From IMG/VR virus record IMGVR_UViG_3300033551_000022, positions 1-36,742 of that record: a stretch of 36,742 nucleotides of DNA; one strand, written 5' to 3'. The translations under genes were made by a program, and so were the position numbers. The DNA is from a virus. Of the stretch, positions 1,556 through 36,661 are shown one piece after another. The notes beneath the pieces were generated by a model, which was given only the letters and a program-made list of their open reading frames with translations, had not been told where the DNA came from and searched no databases. Every line of letters begins with the position of its first letter. Position 1 is the stretch's first letter.

Positions 1556-3356
1556 CTATGGCACCCACCGAGAACGGGTCAGCCGGTTGCGGTATGGCTT
1601 TGATAATTTCTTCGGCATAACCCTCAATGATTTCTTTCTGCTTTTCAGCGCCCATGGTTTCAAAGTCTTTGTGCTCTGAAAAGGCACGGCTGATGAACGA
1701 GGTAATCCGCTGGTGTATCACGATGTCCGTATAGGTTAGTGTTTTACCCACGTATGGTATCAACTCAGTTGAGGTGCTTGCCCACAAATCATCCAAAGCC
1801 ATGCTCATTTTTACCATATCCACCGCATCCTGGTTAGAATTGAACCGGGTTTTGCCCGCTTCCTCAATCAGTTGCATTTTGTAGGAAGGCGGCATATTTG
1901 AGGTGTTGGCCTCTGAAATTTCCGTGGTTATATCCTGCGGTGAACGGAAAGAGAAAGTAGTAGGCTTAGATACGCTCGGCATCGTAAAATCCGACTGGTA
2001 CCGGTACCATCCGCAGGCCTCAATGGCAAATTCCATCAGGTCGAAAAATTCATTCGAGAACTGCACAAGGAAGGAGTGGTACTCGTCTTTTTCCAGGTGC
2101 GAACCTTCGGCGGTCTGTTGTATTTTCTCGGCAGACTTAAAAATGTGGGCAAAGGCCCCTTCTTTTTTTTTGTCTATCTGTTCATCCAGCGGCTGTATGG
2201 TATCCGGAGTGGGCGCCACGTAGGCCAGCACTTCGCCGAGTGGCATAAACTTACTCGGGTCGCCGTCCATTTTATCCGGTACGGTAAATACGGTTGTCGG
2301 CCCTTTGCCGCTTCCGGAACAGCCGGGGCAAGCCACGCGTTCGCTCCTTGCCGGACTCCAGACAAACCCTCCGTTACACATGTGCCCCTCGGTCACAACG
2401 GTGCATTTACGCTCCCGCTGGATGGCCACGGGGTAGGCGTTGGCGTGCAACACCATGGTAAGGGTTGAAGAAAGCCGTATCACTTCGTCCAGGTCGGGAA
2501 GTGCTCCGGAGAAAACGCTTTCGTAGAAAATTTCCCCGTCTATCTCCTTGGGCTTACCGCCCAGCTTTCTGCACGGTACGTAATTCCAGTCATGCCGGTA
2601 GATTTCGGTTTCCGTGTAGACAATCTGCCCCTCGGATGTTCTGGCCGTGGGTACAACTTCATAAATGGAAGTGCGGTCGTATGCTTTGAACTTTACGTAG
2701 TCGGCATTTTCAAAACGTACTTTGCCGTCAGCGATTATGCTCAGGTGGTTTTCCGAATGAAAAATGACATCGCGCTCCTTTATAAGTCTTACGATGGGTT
2801 CAATATCAACGCTCTGGTCCGGAATCAGATTTCCTTCGCCGTTCATTTTAACGGGTATCCTCAAAGGTTCCACAACCATTAACTGGTTGGGGTAGTTTAT
2901 TTTGGACTCGCGTACAATGTCAAAGAAATAAGACTCCAGCGAATGATATTTCGGGTAATCCCTGTAGAAGTATTTTTCCTGCTCAGGGTCCCAGCCGGTT
3001 ATGGAATAGTTCTGCTTATTGGCTATTACCTTGGTTTTGTTGAGCGCACGCGTCCACGTAGAGCGGGTATAGGGCACGTAAAGCCCACATTGGTAATCCC
3101 ACTCTTTGGGGTCCTGGTTGGGTGCTTTTGTCCGCAGTACCTCGTATGGGAATACTTTAGCCTCTGCGTGGATGGCTACTTCGAAATGGTGCCTTACGGT
3201 TTCGGCATAAACAGGGTTTATATCCGGAAGCCGCTCACACCATCTCTCGTACTCGAAATTCTTCTTTTCGGTATAACCGGGTACGCGCCAATCGGCCGAC
3301 ATCATTTTTAATGCGGCGTTTGCACAGATGGTTGATATTTCTCCCGCAGGCAACAC
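1542..3356 (-). CDS. Phage portal protein
   Basis: 604 aa in this frame (about 670 if the downstream frame is joined). The portal forms the dodecameric DNA channel at one capsid vertex. Long mixed alpha/beta protein; a four-cysteine zinc-site-like element lies near residues 318-346 (C318, C327, C343, C346, the last pair as CPGC followed by a Gly-rich turn), followed by a long helical C-terminal half with an Asp/Glu/Lys-rich segment (LDEQIDKKKEGAFAHIFKSA) typical of portal stem and clip regions. The first possible start is a GTG at 3356 placed directly after an in-frame TAA; the next ATG is at 3305. There is no clear Shine-Dalgarno. The ORF ends within a run of nine G followed at once by TAA. 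Neighbours are a coiled-coil protein and scaffold downstream. The portal call rests on overall resemblance and context. Confidence 0.72.
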   Translation of the reverse strand: MLPAGEISTICANAALKMMSADWRVPGYTEKKNFEYERWCERLPDINPVYAETVRHHFEVAIHAEAKVFPYEVLRTKAPNQDPKEWDYQCGLYVPYTRSTWTRALNKTKVIANKQNYSITGWDPEQEKYFYRDYPKYHSLESYFFDIVRESKINYPNQLMVVEPLRIPVKMNGEGNLIPDQSVDIEPIVRLIKERDVIFHSENHLSIIADGKVRFENADYVKFKAYDRTSIYEVVPTARTSEGQIVYTETEIYRHDWNYVPCRKLGGKPKEIDGEIFYESVFSGALPDLDEVIRLSSTLTMVLHANAYPVAIQRERKCTVVTEGHMCNGGFVWSPARSERVACPGCSGSGKGPTTVFTVPDKMDGDPSKFMPLGEVLAYVAPTPDTIQPLDEQIDKKKEGAFAHIFKSAEKIQQTAEGSHLEKDEYHSFLVQFSNEFFDLMEFAIEACGWYRYQSDFTMPSVSKPTTFSFRSPQDITTEISEANTSNMPPSYKMQLIEEAGKTRFNSNQDAVDMVKMSMALDDLWASTSTELIPYVGKTLTYTDIVIHQRITSFISRAFSEHKDFETMGAEKQKEIIEGYAEEIIKAIPQPADPFSVGAIDGGG

Positions 3357-3422
3357 TTATTTGGTGGGCTTTGTTGGTTTAGTCCTTGGCTTTGTGGGCC
3401 GGCCGCAGCATTTACTTTTCAT
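3357..3422 (-). CDS. 21-residue Lys/Pro-rich mini-ORF upstream of portal
   Basis: ATG at 3422, stop TAA at 3357-3359; the peptide begins MKSKCCGRP and continues with repeated KPT/TKP units. It fills the only gap between the methyltransferase and portal genes and is in the same frame as portal, separated from its GTG by the single TAA. It could be a real tiny basic protein, a leader for translational coupling, or the relic of a longer portal N-terminus. No function can be assigned. Confidence 0.4.
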   Translation of the reverse strand: MKSKCCGRPTKPRTKPTKPTK

Positions 3423-3424
3423 GG

Positions 3425-3940
3425 CTATTTACGTTTAAGTATGGTGAGCCCCCGTTTTTCTGGGGTGTTCAGCGTGATTTTGGAGTAATCGTATTGTTCT
3501 GCGTAATCCATCAACCTCACCACGTCGGGCATGTGTATGCCGTCATGGTAAACGATGAGGCCGCCGGGGGTCAATACGTGCTCCACCTGTTTGAATTCAG
3601 GCAGAATATGCTCCCAATGGTGGGCGCTGTCCACGAAAACCAGGCCGAAGTGATTTCGGGTGAGCTTGGGCAGTTCCAAAATGGAATCACCGAGTATAAA
3701 ATCAATGGACTTACCCTTTGCAGAATAGGCCTTTTTGGCATCTGCGGTGCGAAAGTCCTCAATGTCGATACCCGCAAAGTATCCGTCCTTGGGAAGTGCA
3801 TTTATGAGCGCGATGGAAGTTTCACCCTCAAATACGCCCACCTCCAAAACGGTTTTTGCGCCGGTCATTGCGATAAGCCCGGCAAGAAACCAACCCACCT
3901 CGGGTTCACTGTTCCACTCTTTTGGAGGGTTATTATCCAC
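3425..3940 (-). CDS. Class I SAM-dependent methyltransferase
   Basis: 171 aa. Rossmann-type SAM-binding motif I is LEVGVFEGE (residues 32-40); the acidic residue after strand 2 is in GIDIED (57-62); a DSAHHW motif (104-109) and GGLIVYHDG (126-134) match O-methyltransferase or sugar-modifying families of the Methyltransf_24 type. The start is a GTG at 3940, chosen because a strong Shine-Dalgarno (AAGGAGGT) precedes it by five bases; it overlaps the glycosyltransferase stop by 8 nt. The linkage to two glycosyltransferases suggests it methylates a sugar or a glycosylated virion protein; the substrate is unknown. Confidence 0.75.
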   Translation of the reverse strand: MDNNPPKEWNSEPEVGWFLAGLIAMTGAKTVLEVGVFEGETSIALINALPKDGYFAGIDIEDFRTADAKKAYSAKGKSIDFILGDSILELPKLTRNHFGLVFVDSAHHWEHILPEFKQVEHVLTPGGLIVYHDGIHMPDVVRLMDYAEQYDYSKITLNTPEKRGLTILKRK

Positions 3941-5147
3941 CTAGCACCTCCTTGCATTTTTCGATAAACATCTGCCCGTTATTCAGCCTTACCTCAAATG
4001 CATGGTAGATACCGCCCTGGTAAGTTGTACCCAAGCCGAACGTGGAGTTTTCGCCCAAATCCCATTTGGGTTGAACTACATGCAGGGGCCAAATCGATTT
4101 GCATTTTTCAAAACCACCTGCGGCCAGGGTGACTTCACCGCCGGTATCGTTGGTTTCAGTCGGGGCAAAAGAGGGCTTGCCCCATTTCTTCCACATGGTT
4201 TCGGTAAAGGTGATGTAGGCCACACCCACATAAATGGGCTTTCCTTCAATGTGGTGAGCCTGTTGTGCGATGCCGCACAACTTTTTGGGGTCGGTGGGAA
4301 TTTCCGAAGTTGTGGGAATGGCGTCTACATCCCAGATGTGGATGCGGGAAAATTCGTTATTGTTCAACCAGTGGTCGATGGCTTCCCCGTGGGGAAGTTC
4401 CGTAAGGACCTGTGTGATTTCGATGCCGAAGTGTTCAAAAACCGCCTTTTGGTGGGCGAGTACCTGCGGGTCAATACCCGAGTTGTAGAATGTTATGTGC
4501 ATACCCGTGGGAATTACAGATTTAAAGGCCTTCGAGTCTGAAATTGCCTTGTTTTTTCCAAGTGTTTCGTATTGGTCAATATCAGCGTGGAAAGCATTGC
4601 GTGATTCGTGCGTGTTATTCACGATGAGCGAAGGCTCGAAAAAACTTTGCTCCAACCCCGAGGCTTTGAGGCGTTCGTACATGTCGATGTCGTCATAGCC
4701 CCAGCCCTCCATCAGTTCGTTATAACCCCTTACCTGTTCAAAGTCGTTTTTGTAGATAAGCATACATCCGCATCCGTTCCACGGAGGCGAGGTGAGCCCG
4801 GTTACAAAAGCGCCGGGTTTGAGTTTTTGGAGGGCATCAGACAGGAAATTAGGCTCCAAAACGGTATCGGCGTCCAAAAAGAGAAGTACATCACCGTCTG
4901 CGTGTCGGTAACCGGCATTACGGGCCTTATTGAGGTTCCAATATCCCTCTGAAACGGGTTCTTTATAACAGGAAACCTTTTTGTTTTTAAGACTGTCGAT
5001 GTATTTTTCGGTACCGTCCGGGCAGTTATAATCTACCACAAGAATATCGCTATCCCCCTCAAGGGCAATCCAGGTGGGCAGGCAGTCCTTTAATTGGGAA
5101 AGCCGGCCTTTGCAATAGCTGATTATGGTAACTTTAGACTTAGGCAT
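3933..5147 (-). CDS. Two-domain glycosyltransferase (GT2-like N-terminal)
   Basis: 404 aa. The N-terminal domain (about 1-210) is a GT-A fold glycosyltransferase: TIISYCKGR opening, a nucleotide-sugar-binding DADT motif at 92-95, and a GWGYDDIDMYERL motif (148-160) resembling the acceptor/catalytic region of galactosyltransferase-like GT2 and GT7-C enzymes. The C-terminal domain (about 217-404) has its own HIWDVDAIP motif (270-278) and could be a second sugar-handling domain. Cytoplasmic; no signal or membrane segment. The next gene upstream is another glycosyltransferase (8-nt overlap) and the downstream gene a methyltransferase, so the three probably modify one virion glycan. Confidence 0.82.
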   Translation of the reverse strand: MPKSKVTIISYCKGRLSQLKDCLPTWIALEGDSDILVVDYNCPDGTEKYIDSLKNKKVSCYKEPVSEGYWNLNKARNAGYRHADGDVLLFLDADTVLEPNFLSDALQKLKPGAFVTGLTSPPWNGCGCMLIYKNDFEQVRGYNELMEGWGYDDIDMYERLKASGLEQSFFEPSLIVNNTHESRNAFHADIDQYETLGKNKAISDSKAFKSVIPTGMHITFYNSGIDPQVLAHQKAVFEHFGIEITQVLTELPHGEAIDHWLNNNEFSRIHIWDVDAIPTTSEIPTDPKKLCGIAQQAHHIEGKPIYVGVAYITFTETMWKKWGKPSFAPTETNDTGGEVTLAAGGFEKCKSIWPLHVVQPKWDLGENSTFGLGTTYQGGIYHAFEVRLNNGQMFIEKCKEVLGG

Positions 5148-6108
5148 CAGCTGTTTTCTTCTTGGTTTGCTTGGATTTGTCGGATTTAGGTTTTTCAGGA
5201 ACGCTTATTTTGACGGGTTCGGGAATTGTAAACCTTTTACCCACCAGAGGACGCCCGCCCAAAACGAATTTGCGGGCCATCATGTGATGGTACTTATATG
5301 GACAAGTTCTTCCCATAAGCGCGGCCCAATATTTAAGGCTGTACCTTCCGTAGTTCTTATAGGTCTTGAGCATGTCGTTGCTGCTGGCTCCGTAAAGACC
5401 TATCGCGTAGGTATGGGTGTGCAGTGCGCTGATGTCGTGCTCGGACATCTTAAACTTTACCGGGGTGTCTTTATCGTCGCTTATTTTAAGGTCTTCATCA
5501 CAGAGCGCAGCGGCAACGTTGAAAGCCAGTTCATCGGGGAATGATTTACCCCATGTAGTCTGGTACTCCGGCAGGTGACATTGTTTAGCAACGTCAAAAT
5601 ACCGCTCTGCCGCCGGGCCCTTTTTGAAGTACATAAACGAACTGTTGATTTCCGGCAGGTTGAACTTTTCGGGTAATCCGTAAACTGTCCGCGTGTCCGG
5701 CAGGCTCATCCACTGGCAGGGCCATACTTCGTTTTCTTCCGTAGATACGGTGTTTACCTGTGAGGCAACCTGCTTACCTGAGCAGAGTTCAAAAAGACCT
5801 GAGAGGGGTTTTATGCAAAGGCCGTCAACGTCCAGGTAGATTGTTTCCTCAAAGGGGGAGTAGTCGTACATGTGAAGTTTGGCATAACCCGGCGCAAAGT
5901 TTCCGCTTACGGTACAATGCGCCGGGTTGATGTCAATTACACTGTGAAACAAACCAAGTTCTTCTTTGGAAAGATGGGCCTTACATGCAGGATCCACCAC
6001 AAGGGCTATCGGCATTCCGGGATTATGGTATTTCAATGAAACGGCCATGTTAGCCGCCCATTGCGCATAAACCGCGTTGCCGATAGCCATCAGTAGTGTA
6101 CCTGCCAT
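5140..6108 (-). CDS. Glycosyltransferase, GT8-like GT-A fold
   Basis: 322 aa. The N-terminus (residues 1-40) is a Rossmann-like beta-alpha unit with a long helix rich in Ala; YLDVDGL at 91-97 provides the DxD metal and nucleotide-sugar-binding motif, and residues 150-160 (NSSFMYFKKG) resemble the acceptor-side strand of GT8-type enzymes. A disordered Lys-rich tail covers the last 25 residues. It heads a three-gene set with a second glycosyltransferase and a SAM methyltransferase inside the late operon. Donor and acceptor cannot be told from sequence. Confidence 0.75.
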   Translation of the reverse strand: MAGTLLMAIGNAVYAQWAANMAVSLKYHNPGMPIALVVDPACKAHLSKEELGLFHSVIDINPAHCTVSGNFAPGYAKLHMYDYSPFEETIYLDVDGLCIKPLSGLFELCSGKQVASQVNTVSTEENEVWPCQWMSLPDTRTVYGLPEKFNLPEINSSFMYFKKGPAAERYFDVAKQCHLPEYQTTWGKSFPDELAFNVAAALCDEDLKISDDKDTPVKFKMSEHDISALHTHTYAIGLYGASSNDMLKTYKNYGRYSLKYWAALMGRTCPYKYHHMMARKFVLGGRPLVGKRFTIPEPVKISVPEKPKSDKSKQTKKKTADA

Positions 6109-22593: not shown

Positions 22594-22983
22594 TTATTTA
22601 GTGGTGAGTTCTTTTTCTATCTTTCCGTATTCTTCGGGACCTACAACATGGTACAGCATCTGCCTAAGGTCGTCTGCGGTCCTGAACGCCTCTTTGAACT
22701 TTTTAAGGTGATGGAGTACCGTGCAATGCTCTTTGCCGACCATGGCCCCCAAAAGGGAAAGAGAGACGCGATGCTTTGACCTCCGGCACAGGAAGTAAAA
22801 TATACTTCTGGCGTCCACGGTGTATTGCTCCCTGTTTTCGTCAGTAAGGCTCATTTGAAGCCGGGTTTCTACAAGGTGCTTTATCTCGTACGGGCGTTTT
22901 TCCTCCAATGGCTTTGAGGGAATGGAGAATTTTCGCATCCCGTCGAGATTACATACCCTGAGTATCTTTTCGCTCTGTTTCAT
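22594..22983 (-). CDS. DnaA domain IV-like DNA-binding protein
   Basis: 129 aa. The segment 57-95 (DARSIFYFLCRR, then SLSLLGAMVGKEHCTVLHHL) matches the helix-turn-helix region of DnaA domain IV, including the basic loop and the DHTTV-like signature here read as EHCTV. No AAA+ domain is present, so it can bind DNA but not load helicase by itself. Such stand-alone domains occur in phages and may bind the phage origin or compete at the host origin; which applies is open. The start at 22983 overlaps the methyltransferase by 35 nt; ATG at 22938 would avoid the overlap. Neither start has a Shine-Dalgarno. Confidence 0.75.
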   Translation of the reverse strand: MKQSEKILRVCNLDGMRKFSIPSKPLEEKRPYEIKHLVETRLQMSLTDENREQYTVDARSIFYFLCRRSKHRVSLSLLGAMVGKEHCTVLHHLKKFKEAFRTADDLRQMLYHVVGPEEYGKIEKELTTK

Positions 22984-24391
22984 TCAGAATGTCGTTTACT
23001 TTCTGTATTCTTTTGCCTATCCACTCCATAACGGGCACGGCCATGGAGTTGCCCAATGCCTTGTATCTGGGTCCGTCAGCCGCCAGTTTGGCACATTCTT
23101 CGCGCGTGAGACCTTTGGGGTTGCCGCGGGCCTGGTACTTTATCCAGTCGGCTGCCAGTTTTTCGGGCTTTACGCCGCGCCCGAACGGAACATTTGTCCA
23201 CCCGTCAGGAAACCCCTGTAATCTTTCACACTCCCTGGGGGTGAGGCGACGCACGTTTAGTCCGTCAAACATATTTTGGTCTGGCGATGTTTCAAAATGC
23301 GCGGAGGTAATTACATGCGGCAAACTTGCACTTGACAATGTTCCAGCAGAATCTCCAAACTCCACCGTTGAACGGTTTGTCTTGCTGGTAATCTGTACGC
23401 CATCAAAATAAGCCACCGCGTGGGAGTGACTTGTCGTTATGGTAAATGCCGGGTCCCCATCTTCACCGACACCAAATCCGGTTCCGTTACCCATGGATAT
23501 ATGCCTGGTTGCCACTTGGGTGTTTATCGGAATGGCACCGAAGGACACTGCAAAAACTTCAACCTCAAAATCATTCCGCTGCCCCTTAGCCGTTGCGGCA
23601 TGCCTTACGGCTAAGGGGCCCGATGTATTACCGCCCCCGAAACATAATGTTTCGCTCCCTCCGCCCAGGTCGCCGCCGTTGGCTCTCACGGTTCCTCCGA
23701 CTTCCGTTTCGATATATGCACCAATGCTTGATGCAGCAAAGCAGGAAGGGTCTTGCCCCGTTTTTCTGCCCGGCGCAGGATGCCAAGCGCAGCCTTCGGC
23801 GTCAAAAAGTACCGCCGCGGCATGTCGCCAGTCTCCAAGGTATCCGACAACGAACACACGCTCGCGTCTCTGGGCCACACCGAAGTACTGAGCGTCAAGC
23901 ACACGCCAGGCGAGCCCGTAGGCATTCCGGTAGCCGGGGATGATTCCGGCCTTTTTCCATCCTCCTTTTGGCGGCTCAATTCCTTGTCCGCTGAGGAATC
24001 CCAAAAACTCCGCAAAGTCGCGTCCTCCGTTACTTGAAAGAACACCGGGGACGTTTTCCCATAGGATCCAGCGCGGCCTTTTTTCGGCGGCAATACGTCC
24101 GAAGGTGAGTGAAAGCTGAGAACGCGGGTCGTCCAAGCCGCCCCTGAGTCCGGCGATTGAGAACCCTTGGCAGGGTGTTCCTCCGCAAATAAGGTCAATA
24201 GGCTCATTTATGAAAATTTCGTTTGTGAATACTTTGGTCATGTCCCCTATATTCGGGACTTTGGGAAACCTGTGTGCAAGAACAGCACAAGGGAACGGTT
24301 CTATTTCGGAACAATACACCGGAGTCCACCCCAACGGTTCCCATGCGGTTTCTGGCGCTCCTATCCCGGAACAGAAAGTGGCAAATCTCAT
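22949..24391 (-). CDS. DNA (cytosine-5) methyltransferase, Dcm-like
   Basis: 480 aa from ATG at 24391, which overlaps the helicase-loader stop as ATGA and has a strong Shine-Dalgarno (AAAGGAGGT). Motif I FCSGIGAPE (6-14), catalytic motif IV GGTPCQGFS with Cys74, motif VI ENV (112-114), motif VIII QRRERVFVVG (174-183), target-recognition region about 190-380, motif IX RLTPRECERLQGFPDGWT (382-399), motif X GNSMAVPVMEWIG (447-459). All catalytic elements are intact. The recognition region is unusually long and Gly/Thr-rich, so the target cannot be predicted. No partner restriction enzyme is visible, so it is probably an anti-restriction or regulatory orphan methylase. Confidence 0.95.
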   Translation of the reverse strand: MRFATFCSGIGAPETAWEPLGWTPVYCSEIEPFPCAVLAHRFPKVPNIGDMTKVFTNEIFINEPIDLICGGTPCQGFSIAGLRGGLDDPRSQLSLTFGRIAAEKRPRWILWENVPGVLSSNGGRDFAEFLGFLSGQGIEPPKGGWKKAGIIPGYRNAYGLAWRVLDAQYFGVAQRRERVFVVGYLGDWRHAAAVLFDAEGCAWHPAPGRKTGQDPSCFAASSIGAYIETEVGGTVRANGGDLGGGSETLCFGGGNTSGPLAVRHAATAKGQRNDFEVEVFAVSFGAIPINTQVATRHISMGNGTGFGVGEDGDPAFTITTSHSHAVAYFDGVQITSKTNRSTVEFGDSAGTLSSASLPHVITSAHFETSPDQNMFDGLNVRRLTPRECERLQGFPDGWTNVPFGRGVKPEKLAADWIKYQARGNPKGLTREECAKLAADGPRYKALGNSMAVPVMEWIGKRIQKVNDILNETERKDTQGM

Positions 24392-25128
24392 TCTTGACCT
24401 CCTTTCCCTAAAGAGTCCCAATACTGCTTTAACCTGTTGCCCATACCTGACCTGTTTATCTCCGGTTTTTCTTTGGCAGCCGCTTCTTCCTGCCGGCGCT
24501 TACATTTATCAATCCACTCTAACTGCTCGGCGGTCGGCGGGTGATAAACCGGCGGAAACCCTTTGAAATTTTGGAGTCTGCGGAAATCCATCTGGGGCAT
24601 CTGATAAACATCACACATCTCAAAAATCCTTACTACAGCCCGTTTTCCATATCTTTCCTCTAAGTCTCTAATCCCAAGATTAGTAGTGATGTGGGTTTTT
24701 ACACCTGTGGAACGCCACAGGTCATACCTCCTTGGCAGGAGCTGATTAAACACGTCTACGCTGTCACCGTAATATTTTCCAACAGGTTCAATACCCAAAT
24801 CATCATAGATAATATTCCTGTCCTTGCCGTGCAAAAACGCGGAATGCCCGTTAGTGTTAAAGTCTAATACCGTATCAATTACGGATATTTTGGCAAATTT
24901 TACCGATGACGAAGGGTGTATCACCCGCAGTAAGATTTCAAACAGCATGGTTTTACCGCAGCCCGTATTTCCGATAAGACAGGCACCTTTATTACTTTCT
25001 GTTATGGTGTCGAATATCTGCTTGACCATTTCCCGGTTTCGGTCATCAATGGTATACCCTCCGTCCATCACGAGTTTAGAATACTCGATAAACCAATGTT
25101 TCAGATTACTCTTTTCAGTGTTTTTCAT
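24388..25128 (-). CDS. DnaC-like helicase loader ATPase
   Basis: 246 aa. AAA+ ATPase: Walker A GNTGCGKT (53-60), Walker B IIYDDLG (106-112), sensor-1 THITTNLG (145-152) and a box VII region ERYGKRAVVRIFEM (158-171) with candidate arginine fingers. This is the DnaC/DnaI-type loader that brings replicative helicase to an origin. C-terminal 50 residues are a charged coil. Lies between the DUF1376-type replication protein and the methyltransferase, forming the replication module. No replicative helicase gene is visible, so the host enzyme is presumably recruited. Confidence 0.88.
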   Translation of the reverse strand: MKNTEKSNLKHWFIEYSKLVMDGGYTIDDRNREMVKQIFDTITESNKGACLIGNTGCGKTMLFEILLRVIHPSSSVKFAKISVIDTVLDFNTNGHSAFLHGKDRNIIYDDLGIEPVGKYYGDSVDVFNQLLPRRYDLWRSTGVKTHITTNLGIRDLEERYGKRAVVRIFEMCDVYQMPQMDFRRLQNFKGFPPVYHPPTAEQLEWIDKCKRRQEEAAAKEKPEINRSGMGNRLKQYWDSLGKGGQE

Positions 25129-25129
25129 T

Positions 25130-25807
25130 TTATGCTTCTCCGTAGCTTAATTTACCCGCAGGTGTATCAGAGGTATCCGAGACTGTTTTTGTGTCAACCA
25201 CGGGCCTGCTATTGGCCCCGAAGTTGTTTTTTGCCCAGTTCCGCACGGCTGCTTTCCAGTCCTTCATGGCCGATTTGCCCCCGACTTTCCAGCCGTTGCT
25301 CTCGTAGTGGTCAATAAACCTCTGCGCGTCAATGTTGGCTTTTATCTCCCCGGAATAAGTTTTTACTTCCTCGACGGTCGGCTTTGTGAATTTCCCTTTT
25401 TCCCCTGCACCCCTTTTACCCTTAATCTCAATTTCATTATCTATATCATTATCATTATCCATATGAGGGGCCATATGATTATCCATATGCGTTCCCATAT
25501 GGGAGTTTTTCACTCCTTTAAGGTTGTTTTTACGTGATTCGGTGTAAGCTTTACGTTTATTTCTCTCGGTTTCCATCCGCTCGTTAAAAAAAAGACCGTC
25601 GCCGGTTTGCGTGAATTTTTTGCGCAGCGCATCCCATTGGGAAAAGTCGCTGCCCAAAATATTTTTTATCTCATTTAACGAGAGTGGGCCGGAGTTAAAC
25701 TGCGCGTGCAGCAAATCCATGTAACAGCCTTTCTGGTGCCTGGTGAAACCTACCGTACCTCCGTGCCAGTCGTTCCAATAAAATGCCAATGCCGGGTCTT
25801 TTGCCAT
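25130..25807 (-). CDS. DUF1376-type replication initiation protein
   Basis: 225 aa. N-terminal DUF1376-like domain (KDPALAFYWNDWHGGTVGFT at 3-22, then a winged-helix-like region to about 95), a low-complexity linker and a C-terminal domain (FIDHYESNGWKVGG and KDWKAAVRNWAK at about 164-193) found in phage replisome organisers. The linker contains four HM dipeptides at exact four-residue steps (103, 107, 111, 115) followed by an Asp/Asn run, because the DNA here holds four CATATG sites at 12-bp spacing. Upstream of DnaC-like loader (1-nt gap), as expected for an origin-binding or helicase-loading partner. The DUF1376 assignment is from recalled resemblance. Confidence 0.75.
   Translation of the reverse strand: MAKDPALAFYWNDWHGGTVGFTRHQKGCYMDLLHAQFNSGPLSLNEIKNILGSDFSQWDALRKKFTQTGDGLFFNERMETERNKRKAYTESRKNNLKGVKNSHMGTHMDNHMAPHMDNDNDIDNEIEIKGKRGAGEKGKFTKPTVEEVKTYSGEIKANIDAQRFIDHYESNGWKVGGKSAMKDWKAAVRNWAKNNFGANSRPVVDTKTVSDTSDTPAGKLSYGEA
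25436..25501. repeat. Four 12-bp CATATG iterons with adjacent AT-rich tract
   Basis: CCATATG occurs at 25459, 25471, 25483 and 25495, each exactly 12 bp apart, and CATATG itself is palindromic. An AT-rich stretch (25436-25458, with repeated ATTATC/ATCATT) adjoins it. The repeats lie inside the replication gene, as in the lambda O gene, and could be a replication origin. Confidence 0.6.
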
Positions 25808-34248: not shown

Positions 34249-34989
34249 TTACCCCTCCGTAATTATTGTTGCGTTTACTTCACTGTCGTGGTCGGCCAGC
34301 ATAACAAAAGGCTCGGTAGACCAATCCAGTTTAAAGTGCTCTTTGGGTAGAATTTCCAAAAGCGTTTCTATTGCCTTGGAGAGGCGCACAAGCAATTCAT
34401 TGAGGTATGATACATCTCGGTCAACCCAAATAATTTTTAGCCGCATGTCCTCAATTTTCAGGCGTGGGTCGAACGAAACAAACACGCCCTTTTCTTTTCC
34501 GGCGCAAAGCATATTAAACTGCAACTGACCATAATATCCGGGCTCGTTCTTTTTGAGGTCGGCTGCATTCTTGTAAGAAAGGCGCTTCAGGTGGTGTGCG
34601 GTCTTTTGCGGGCACTTAACTTCCCCCACGGCATGCGTGGTTTCAAAGTCCGGGGAACCGCCGGCAAATTGGGGTGCCTGTTCCAGGGGGTAGAACTTGG
34701 GATTGGCGTTACCGTAGTAGGCAACCTCCATAAATGTTTCGGCTTCAAAGGCGCGTACAGCTAATGCTTCATTGGCATGCCCCCACTCGGTTGCGGAGTT
34801 ACCGCCAAAGTCGTCAGCCTTTTCCCCCGTGATAAGTTCACCGGCCACCTCCAGAATGTAGGTCATGGCGCCCACGGAAAAATATTCGGCCTTTGTTTTG
34901 CCCGTACCCATAAGGACGTGTATTTGACTGGCGGTGAACTTGCCCAGACGCGCGGCTTCCCATTCGTTAGTTTCTTCGATGAATCCCAT
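34249..34989 (-). CDS. YqaJ-type viral recombinase / exonuclease
   Basis: 246 aa. PD-(D/E)xK nuclease of the YqaJ (lambda exonuclease-like) group: WEAARLGKFTAS (10-21), TEWGHANEALAV (67-78), catalytic GGSPDFE...VGEVKCP with D114, E123 and K125, and a YYGQLQFNML motif (152-161). It would resect DNA ends for single-strand annealing recombination. The partner gene downstream in the transcript order (34989-35471) is a candidate annealing/accessory protein. Start and stop share one base with the gene upstream (TAATG). Confidence 0.87.
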   Translation of the reverse strand: MGFIEETNEWEAARLGKFTASQIHVLMGTGKTKAEYFSVGAMTYILEVAGELITGEKADDFGGNSATEWGHANEALAVRAFEAETFMEVAYYGNANPKFYPLEQAPQFAGGSPDFETTHAVGEVKCPQKTAHHLKRLSYKNAADLKKNEPGYYGQLQFNMLCAGKEKGVFVSFDPRLKIEDMRLKIIWVDRDVSYLNELLVRLSKAIETLLEILPKEHFKLDWSTEPFVMLADHDSEVNATIITEG

Positions 34990-35471
34990 TATTTTACTGT
35001 TAGGAGTTTTTCGTTTTCTGTGGATAATGTGTAGTGTTTTCTGATACCCTCAACGGTGGCCGTACCGTCAATGATGGCCTTTTTGGCGCCATCCCATTTA
35101 GGGCTCACCGGGGTCAGTTCTGGGAGTTTGTTTTCGGGAACAGCTGGCCGGATGCGGAGACATTCTACCTCGTCCCCGGCTACTTTTGTGGTGGTAGCAA
35201 AGACTGTTATCTTTTTACCGGCCCAATCCTCTATATAAGGGGTGAGATAAAGTTTGCTGATGGTTTTGCAATTCGTCCGGTTTAAAATCATCGGCTTTAC
35301 ATTTTCAACAAAATGGGCTACAGTACATTCGTCTGATTTCCCCCCTTCCCCCTTCACCATCTGCCGCCCAACCGTCTTTATGGTCAGTGTAAGGTCTTTG
35401 CCCGGGTCTAGACTGTGTGCCCCTAAATAATCGGGGTTTATCAGCCGCTTCCAGTGTGTTTTTTGCTCCAT
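34989..35471 (-). CDS. Recombination-associated protein
   Basis: 160 aa from ATG at 35471 (MEQKTHWKRL), chosen because the longer start at 35510 overlaps the preceding gene. Beta-rich with INPDYLGAHSLDPGKDLTLT (9-28) and a segment TISKLYLTPYIEDWAGKKIT. It lies directly next to the YqaJ exonuclease, as single-strand annealing or accessory proteins do, but I cannot match it to a known annealing protein. Shine-Dalgarno weak. Confidence 0.65.
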   Translation of the reverse strand: MEQKTHWKRLINPDYLGAHSLDPGKDLTLTIKTVGRQMVKGEGGKSDECTVAHFVENVKPMILNRTNCKTISKLYLTPYIEDWAGKKITVFATTTKVAGDEVECLRIRPAVPENKLPELTPVSPKWDGAKKAIIDGTATVEGIRKHYTLSTENEKLLTVK

Positions 35472-35476
35472 AGGTA

Positions 35477-35632
35477 TTACTTGGTTTGCTTGTGTATATA
35501 ATTTGCCCAATTGTTATAGGTAGGCTTGGGCTGGGCCTGTAAAGTGGTTTTATTCCTTGATCCGATAGGCGTGGTTATGGAAGTGCCGGGCTGCTCGTCG
35601 CCGGAGTCGGTTATGATTACTGTATTTGCCAT
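35477..35632 (-). CDS. 51-residue small protein
   Basis: ATG at 35632 (MANTVIITDSG...) overlapping the Cys-repeat gene's stop by one base (TAATG). Short, with a Gly/Thr-rich middle and a basic C-terminus (NNWANYIHKQTK). The start matches the overlap style of this operon, supporting it over a longer ORF to 35674. Confidence 0.55.
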   Translation of the reverse strand: MANTVIITDSGDEQPGTSITTPIGSRNKTTLQAQPKPTYNNWANYIHKQTK

Positions 35633-36423
35633 TATGATTCCTGTTTGGATTGTTTCGCCTCCTCTTCCGCACATCGCTTAATATCCTCCATTGCCGTTTC
35701 GTTGCCCTCGTAAAACCTCACGGGTGAAACCCGTATATTGCTGGACTTTCGATAAATCTGCAATGCGGCAAATTCGGTACTTGTTTCTTCCTCCAAAGCT
35801 TTACCATCTTCGCCCGCAAGGGTGACTACCCAGCCCGCCCTACAGTGCGTTGTGTCGCATGTGTGCCAGGTAGACATGTCTAGTGCGTTGGGCATTTTGA
35901 CCGCATCCAACACTTTTTGATGGATATTTTCAATTACCGGTATTCCGGCAGGCTTTGATTCTCCCTTTTTATCGGAGCAGTCGGAGCAGCCGAAGCAGTC
36001 GGAGCAGTCGAAGCAGCCGAAGCAGTCGGAGCAGTCGAAGCAGCCGGAGCAGTCGGAGCAGCCGGAGCAGCCGAAGCAGCCGGAGCAGCCGGAGCAGTCG
36101 AAGCAGTCGGAGCAGCCGGAGCAGCCGGAGCAGCCGGAGCAGTCGGAGCAGTCGAAGCAGTCGGAGCAGCCGGAGCAGCCGGAGCAGCCGGAGCAGCCGA
36201 AGCAGTCGGAGCAGCCGGAGCAGTCGAAGCAGTCGGAGCAGTCGGAGCAGTCGAAGCAGCCGGAGCAGCCGGAGCAGCCGGAGCAGTTCCAACAACCTTT
36301 GTTAGTGGCGTTCTGGGCCTCCCAGTTGGGATTATTGTCAGCGAAAATCTGACTTACGCCGTTTTCGGCTTTATCCTCTCTTTGCAGGAATTCCGAGTAG
36401 TCTTTGAAAATTTTTGTTGCCAT
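35632..36423 (-). CDS. Cysteine-repeat protein, first gene of early operon
   Basis: 263 aa. N-terminus (1-43) acidic/polar (TKIFKDYSEFLQREDKAENG), then CWN and 35 consecutive Cys-x-x units (residues 47-151) in four forms: CSG, CSD, CFD, CFG. Overlapping CxxC motifs could hold many metal ions or disulfides. Residues 165-263 form a separate domain with HTCDTTHCRAGWVVTLAG (187-204), WH and C motifs found in several phage hypothetical proteins. I know no enzyme function. It has about 39 cysteines, and a tRNA-Cys gene lies less than 200 bp upstream, with a strong terminator between them. Cytoplasmic by sequence; no signal peptide. Confidence 0.72.
   Translation of the reverse strand: MATKIFKDYSEFLQREDKAENGVSQIFADNNPNWEAQNATNKGCWNCSGCSGCSGCFDCSDCSDCFDCSGCSDCFGCSGCSGCSGCSDCFDCSDCSGCSGCSGCSDCFDCSGCSGCFGCSGCSDCSGCFDCSDCFGCFDCSDCFGCSDCSDKKGESKPAGIPVIENIHQKVLDAVKMPNALDMSTWHTCDTTHCRAGWVVTLAGEDGKALEEETSTEFAALQIYRKSSNIRVSPVRFYEGNETAMEDIKRCAEEEAKQSKQES
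35971..36285 (-). repeat. 35-copy 9-bp tandem repeat encoding Cys-x-x
   Basis: Coding unit TGCTYCGRC, 35 in tandem (315 bp). Counts: CSG 14, CSD 11, CFD 6, CFG 4. Apart from one GAT in the last unit, every variant is a transition at one of two positions; no synonymous changes occur. The 54-bp (six-unit) sub-pattern repeats partly, suggesting growth by slippage or unequal recombination. Confidence 0.95.
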
Positions 36424-36449
36424 GTTATATTCAGTGTAATTGATTTGCC

Positions 36450-36484
36450 AAAAAAAACCGCCACCGATACCTGACCGGCGGCGG
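36450..36484 (-). terminator. Strong intrinsic terminator between tRNA-Cys and Cys-repeat gene
   Basis: On the minus strand a GC-rich hairpin (CCGCC and CCG at 36458-36466 paired with CGG and GGCGG at 36476-36484, one mismatch, 9-nt loop) is followed by eight T. It would end the tRNA transcript 27 bp before the Cys-repeat ATG, so the early operon needs read-through, antitermination or a promoter in the 26 bp left. Confidence 0.8.
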
Positions 36485-36533
36485 CCAACCTTAACCTATG
36501 AAAACCGTTTTTGGGCGGTACCCCTTTGTTTGC

Positions 36534-36563
36534 TCCGGTAAGCCAAACCAATGACTTACCGGA
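36534..36563. other. Nine-bp hairpin in leader
   Basis: TCCGGTAAG at 36534-36542 pairs with CTTACCGGA at 36555-36563 around a 12-nt loop. No T run follows on either strand, so it is not a simple terminator. It lies between the tRNA and the terminator and may be an RNA processing or protein-binding element. Little more can be said. Confidence 0.5.
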
Positions 36564-36590
36564 AACCCTTCATCAACTAAACTAAACCCG

Positions 36591-36661
36591 AGAACAGTAC
36601 AGGAATCGAACCTGTGTATCCGGTTCTGCAAACCGGTGCCTGACCGCTCGGCCAACCGTTC
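36591..36661 (-). tRNA. tRNA-Cys (anticodon GCA)
   Basis: A complete cloverleaf folds on the minus strand: acceptor 7 bp (GAACGGT with ACTGTTC, one G-U), D arm GCC/GGC with a GAGCGGTCA loop, anticodon arm CCGGT-TTGCAGA-ACCGG with anticodon GCA at 36627-36629, short variable loop ATAC, and T arm ACAGG-TTCGATT-CCTGT. The discriminator base is U, as usual for tRNA-Cys. The 3' CCA is not encoded. It reads UGC, the codon used in all 35 repeats of the nearby Cys-repeat protein. The upstream sequence can pair with its 3' strand (see findings). Confidence 0.93.

Follow-up and report, generated by a model that had tools for sequence, protein, structure and literature searches.

Cysteine at every third residue: a widespread repeat module of phage proteins, and the tRNA-Cys gene beside one of them

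Why would a gene whose product has cysteine at every third residue, over a run of 36 cysteines, lie next to a gene for tRNA-Cys? The window in which they are found is the whole of a linear IMG/VR virus record of 36,742 bases that may itself be a fragment, and the answer offered in a preliminary description was that the phage supplies the limiting tRNA for a protein with extreme demand. The pairing is indeed tempting. However, the interest of the locus turns out to be not a matched tRNA supply and instead a widespread phage repeat with frozen cysteines, diversified neighbours and fast change in length.

The gene, its modules and its relatives

The gene for the poly-(Cys-x-x) protein is on the minus strand at 35632–36423 and, from an ATG start, specifies 263 amino acids of which 39 are cysteine. 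Alignments set apart an N-terminal module of residues 1–43 (36295–36423, minus strand), ahead of the array proper, which occupies residues 44–149 (35977–36294, minus strand) and has its 36 cysteines in exact register, spaced by exactly three residues, with Ser or Phe as x1 and Gly or Asp as x2, the units being CSG, CSD, CFD and CFG. A C-terminal helical domain follows at about residues 159–263 (35632–35949, minus strand), as recognised by alignment, by AlphaFold2 and by the profile of phrog_31265. At the DNA level TRF reports a tandem array of 9-bp period, with 34.9 copies and 89% matches, at 35973–36286. The cysteine codons of the array are 35 TGC and one TGT, which comes first, and the statement that 35 UGC codons are consecutive is right if taken as one in every three codons. 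Such an array is far beyond chance, and it recurs as 140 distinct arrays elsewhere. The window protein matches, by profile, phrog_31265 (E 2.8e-31) and phrog_15341 (E 1.3e-23), families that both have no function label, and a search of phages for near DNA gave no match. A second short tandem repeat of the window (25450–25501, period 24, 2.2 copies) is inside the ORF at 25130–25807.

How widely are these modules distributed? With the C-terminal domain alone as query, 42 viral loci and 37 loci in bacterial genomes were found, and with the two types of N-terminal module as queries, 80 and 42 further loci, many of them with the same C-terminal domain. Both N-terminal types occur ahead of Cys-x-x arrays; the window has the one for which alignments give the pattern xIFKxYxEFLxRxDKxxNGVSxxFA...NxGCWNC, and that type as sole query retrieves further array proteins both with and without the C-terminal domain. 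In five stand-alone cases the protein ends after the array (L201, L203, L204, L217 and L218). The C-terminal domain is compact, helical in the model and has a conserved C-x-T-T-H-C-R-A-G-W motif, the phrog_31265 profile matching it in 38 of 38 aligned members; in the window the WHTCDTTHCRAGW motif is at 35830–35868. Searches of NCBIfam and Pfam with this domain gave no convincing match, and the best Z among 52 Foldseek chains was 3.9, which is not meaningful. RbfA was considered as a relative, being the best PDB sequence-profile match, and at E 0.042 was judged to be there by chance.

The loci with this C-terminal domain mostly have a Cys-x-x array ahead of it, the others having pentapeptide repeats, hexapeptide repeats or no repeat at that place. 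Pentapeptide repeats are matched by Pfam in P0001 (E 4.5e-57) and L037 (E 6.5e-58), and the pentapeptide form is also present on a plasmid of Bordetella bronchiseptica that has phage genes. Hexapeptide repeats are found in L039 and L040, that of L039 being the hexapeptide left-handed helix of Pfam (E 4.4e-11); L110 has no repeat, and L092 has a stretch that looks LRR-like by eye and has no Pfam match. The Cys-x-x array thus changes places with beta-solenoid repeats. In a tree of 89 rows of the domain, with resolution limited by its few columns, one change parts the Cys-x-x from the pentapeptide forms, and the hexapeptide form sits among pentapeptide rows.

Named phages with arrays are Flavobacterium phage FL-1, Vibrio phage 1.238.A and Campylobacter phages CP220, CJLB-12 and WX1. 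The array gene of FL-1 (KY421186.2) is like that of the window in having the same N-terminal module, an array of 36 units and the C-terminal domain, and unlike it in that, as deposited, the C-terminal part is in a different frame from the array, so that the domain is split off (L074, 7600–8313, two tblastn pieces). This is possibly a sequencing error, the genome having been read at 11x with 454/Ion Torrent (PMC5465603). Breaks of reading frame in or near the array were seen in two of the loci found (L169 and L172). Some records have several such genes: there are three (L026, L203 and L204) in the 158-kb record IMGVR_UViG_3300035703_000016, which also has more than 20 tRNAs and a tmRNA, and IMGVR_UViG_3300037584_004880 has two stand-alone array genes, L201 and L218, with x1 and x2 far more varied, the latter specifying 59 cysteines in 231 residues. 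Judged by its relatives in sequence, the array is a widespread phage module with versions in more than 100 phages, and in the freely accessible literature on Cys-x-x repeats and Cys-rich phage proteins no description of such arrays was found.

What are its neighbours? Downstream in the window come a gene at 34989–35474 (minus strand; phrog_21613, a family without function label) and, two genes from the array gene, one for a YqaJ/RecE-like recombination exonuclease at 34249–34989 (minus strand; phrog_149, E 3.6e-27, and phrog_434). The latter is a recurrent neighbour, the YqaJ cluster being present in 18 loci. Of 184 loci taken with short flanks, 37 have a recombination gene (YqaJ, ERF, RecT-like or other) nearby and most have none within that distance; the gene names come from reading the sequences, and YqaJ alone, in the window, is confirmed by PHROGs. 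As the record, possibly a fragment, ends 81 bp beyond the tRNA gene, the suggestion that the array gene is the first of an early operon is not demonstrable from it. Near the Cys-x-x gene of five loci there is a gene with another repeat (L023 at 3320–5318, L028, L136 at 220–723, L202 and L222), that of L136 matching the YdcK beta-solenoid repeat (PF18836, E 1.8e-14), and beta-solenoid genes may cluster near Cys-x-x genes. An ORF of 490 amino acids at 22949–24421 of the window resembles a DNA cytosine methyltransferase, and Dcm-like genes are near seven related loci, the name in both cases coming from reading of the sequence.

What is kept and what changes

The 140 distinct arrays have from 7 to 62 units. 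Cysteine is present at 3583 of their 3601 inner register positions, a proportion that leans upward in that the array finder sought runs of cysteine and allowed every second unit to be without it; of the 18 replacements, Ser is the commonest with 10, and two are Ala. Entropy over the set is 0.06 bits for the cysteine position, 1.71 for x1 and 2.56 for x2, and every array has more than one kind of x2 residue, the median being 4. By a minimum-spanning count of codon states, synonymous and nonsynonymous changes stand at 28:1 for cysteine, 16:99 for x1 and 4:309 for x2, where the potentials are 1:6.95, 1:2.44 and 1:3.66, respectively; since the arrays are not phylogenetically independent, these are counts and not rates. 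Variation at x2 is selected, and the contrast, as read from codons, between a cysteine that is kept and an x2 that is diversified within one and the same 9-bp unit is a large one.

Within any one array third bases are nearly uniform, with medians of 0.94–0.98, and so are the codons for cysteine and, in 116 of 122 arrays, those for serine. Across arrays, both cysteine codons are used and each of the six serine codons is somewhere the dominant one. As codon choice differs while the residues stay the same, and as cysteine changes are 28:1 synonymous, it is the protein sequence that is kept.

Number of units is gained and lost rapidly. Three pairs whose flanks are 99.7–100% identical (599–600 of 600 bases, or 369 of 370 and 373 of 373 over shorter stretches) differ in it, L010 and L011 having 28 and 25, L153 and L154 42 and 37, and L232 and L234 16 and 28, though metagenome assembly of repeats could explain part of these differences. 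The members of a pair differ by few substitutions, all in x2 and at its first or second base. Could a diversity-generating retroelement be the source of the variation? It was rejected on the absence of RVT_1 from all 32 records searched, some of which may be incomplete, with positive controls.

The fold and its competitors

What would an array of this kind look like? We infer that it folds as a narrow beta-solenoid with the geometry of the beetle antifreeze protein. Each third residue of the array, the cysteine, would then be turned into the core, with its thiols reduced or binding metal, and x1 and x2 would face the solvent. The resulting rod may serve as a scaffold by which the C-terminal domain is presented or held at a distance, or its variable outer face may be where a partner binds, and in the phage it would be an early protein, from a region of genes for recombination and replication. 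Taken whole, with narrow solenoid rod, modular scaffold role and early action, the explanation seems to us about evenly balanced between being right and being wrong. One and the same helical domain follows repeats of all three kinds, pentapeptide, hexapeptide and Cys-x-x, and this speaks for a solenoid in the array as in the other two. The beetle antifreeze protein 1EZG is matched by a profile of the stand-alone array proteins at E 3.6e-5 and by the window protein alone at E 0.0068, matches for which a composition rich in Cys may by itself account, and the array protein of Vibrio phage 1.238.A was deposited as an 'insect antifreeze protein' (IPR016133); Pfam at E 1 gave no antifreeze match for the window protein and four other array proteins. 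AlphaFold2 gave no confident model of the array, pLDDT being below 50 there in both proteins tried, with a mean of 39 for the stand-alone array L218; for the C-terminal domain of the window protein the model is helical, its pLDDT by block being mostly 77–96. Spacing within the array was examined for the register of a coil, and lags of 4 units (12 residues) and 5 units are favoured weakly and alike (z 3.6 and 3.5), which is not decisive.

Might the cysteines be there for their chemistry instead? Given their near-absolute conservation in 140 arrays, metal binding or dense disulfides, both raised at the outset, are possible. In one form of this idea the array would be a metal-thiolate sink or carrier, like a metallothionein or a copper-storage protein, that binds Zn, Cu or Fe in the course of infection and folds only with its metal. 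Cysteine being kept so strictly while the flanking residues change freely is more than packing alone needs, and the stand-alone arrays, without the C-terminal domain, speak for a sink. However, Pfam gives no match to a metal-binding family, there is no metal gene as a recurrent neighbour and, where the window protein has its array, some relatives with that C-terminal domain have pentapeptide or hexapeptide repeats of no comparable cysteine content, so the domain can do its work without thiol chemistry. We consider the sink unlikely, while rating it the most serious of the competitors. Clearly less probable is an array that is a disordered, redox-sensitive polymer, crosslinking by disulfides with itself or with host proteins, and with its length setting the valency. 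The low AlphaFold2 confidence and the highly variable length fit such a polymer, but it does not require a register of three kept so strictly and so nearly free of insertions, and the replacement of the array by true solenoid repeats in that position is against it.

What then of the tRNA? Its gene, for tRNA-Cys with anticodon GCA, is at 36590–36661 on the minus strand and scores soundly (60.8 bits with the Rfam tRNA model); it is the only tRNA gene in the window, matches the array in amino acid, and is upstream of the array ORF on the same strand, with a gap of 166 bp to its start. As to number, orientation and a distance of less than 200 bp, the preliminary description was accurate, but not in having the tRNA read exactly the UGC codon, GCA being the usual single bacterial Cys anticodon, which reads UGU as well as UGC. 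The Rfam tRNA model was run on the window record and 38 related viral records, some of them possibly fragments. Matches above the cut-off occur in 11 of the 39, several of them weak and unconfirmed by ARAGORN, and besides the window just one of the 38 related records has a tRNA-Cys, namely the 158-kb record, as part of its large set. Other tRNAs confirmed by ARAGORN in related records are for Gln, Gly, Trp and Tyr, and a lone tRNA is one of these and not Cys. None of the five named array phages has a tRNA-Cys: the three Campylobacter phages checked have tRNAs only for Arg, Tyr and Pro, Vibrio phage 1.238.A has no tRNA, and neither does the complete genome of FL-1 (PMC5465603), so an array as long as that of the window exists in a phage without any tRNA, an outcome that the preliminary description had itself named as fatal to its proposal. 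Furthermore, arrays made mainly with UGU are fairly common (15 of 140). Outside the array the cysteine codons of the window are 80 TGC and 69 TGT; the uniformity of TGC is therefore a property of the array, as homogenisation of repeats would give, and such homogenisation can imitate a match of codon to tRNA. A tRNA-Cys beside an array is, as a rule, incidental, and that the two form a supply-and-demand pair is highly improbable, though a private effect of the tRNA in this one phage may exist. The best phage match to the tRNA is a tRNA-Cys at 81%, a weak match of phage type. An origin as a copy of a host attachment site was considered, and three array-carrying Bacteroidota genomes, which may not be those of its host, have no near-identical DNA. 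Least credible of all is a functionless accident of repeat expansion, for while slippage or unequal recombination would give the near uniformity of Cys and Ser codons inside arrays, it is the same residues that all six Ser and both Cys codons serve across arrays, with cysteine codons varying almost only synonymously.

Known solenoids and what the arrays may add

If the fold is as argued, phages hold many natural repeat proteins with one cysteine per three residues and from 7 to 62 units, a series on which the folding of solenoids and cores of thiols or metal could readily be tested. Frozen cysteines set against a diversified x2 and fast turnover of units suggest a surface that is under pressure early in the life of the phage. 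A bolder proposal, which we hold to be rather doubtful, is that this is a new thiol-lined solenoid, a beta-helix in a three-residue register with an all-cysteine core that perhaps holds metal ions in a row or a ladder of thiols. Diversifying selection on its x2 face and change of length between near-identical phages would then fit a surface for recognition, in conflict with proteins of the host.

How do the arrays compare with solenoids already known? The repeat of the beetle (Tenebrio) antifreeze protein, TCTxSxNCxxAx, forms a right-handed beta-helix (PMC8038014) in which C, S, C and A point inward at a spacing of three. Tandem repeats, small core residues at that spacing and many cysteines are shared with the arrays, whose positions at spacing three are, like the insect core, Cys, Ser or Ala in nearly every case. 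The beetle protein differs in that it has a 12-residue repeat, is secreted and disulfide-bonded, and has an ice-binding TCT face (PMC8038014), and in that its core alternates Cys with Ser or Ala, while the phage arrays have almost all Cys and no TCT, presumably reside in the cytoplasm and come with additional N- and C-terminal modules; neither the 12-residue repeat nor any TCT is present in the window protein. The other comparison is with pentapeptide repeat proteins of the MfpA/Qnr type, members of which in proteobacterial phages and prophages share the C-terminal domain. Their family, PF00805, with eight or more A(D/N)LXX pentapeptides, is matched in Pfam by those relatives only and not by the window protein. 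A unit of five residues with a central Leu is unlike Cys-x-x, but outer residues rich in S, G, D and R are common to the two.
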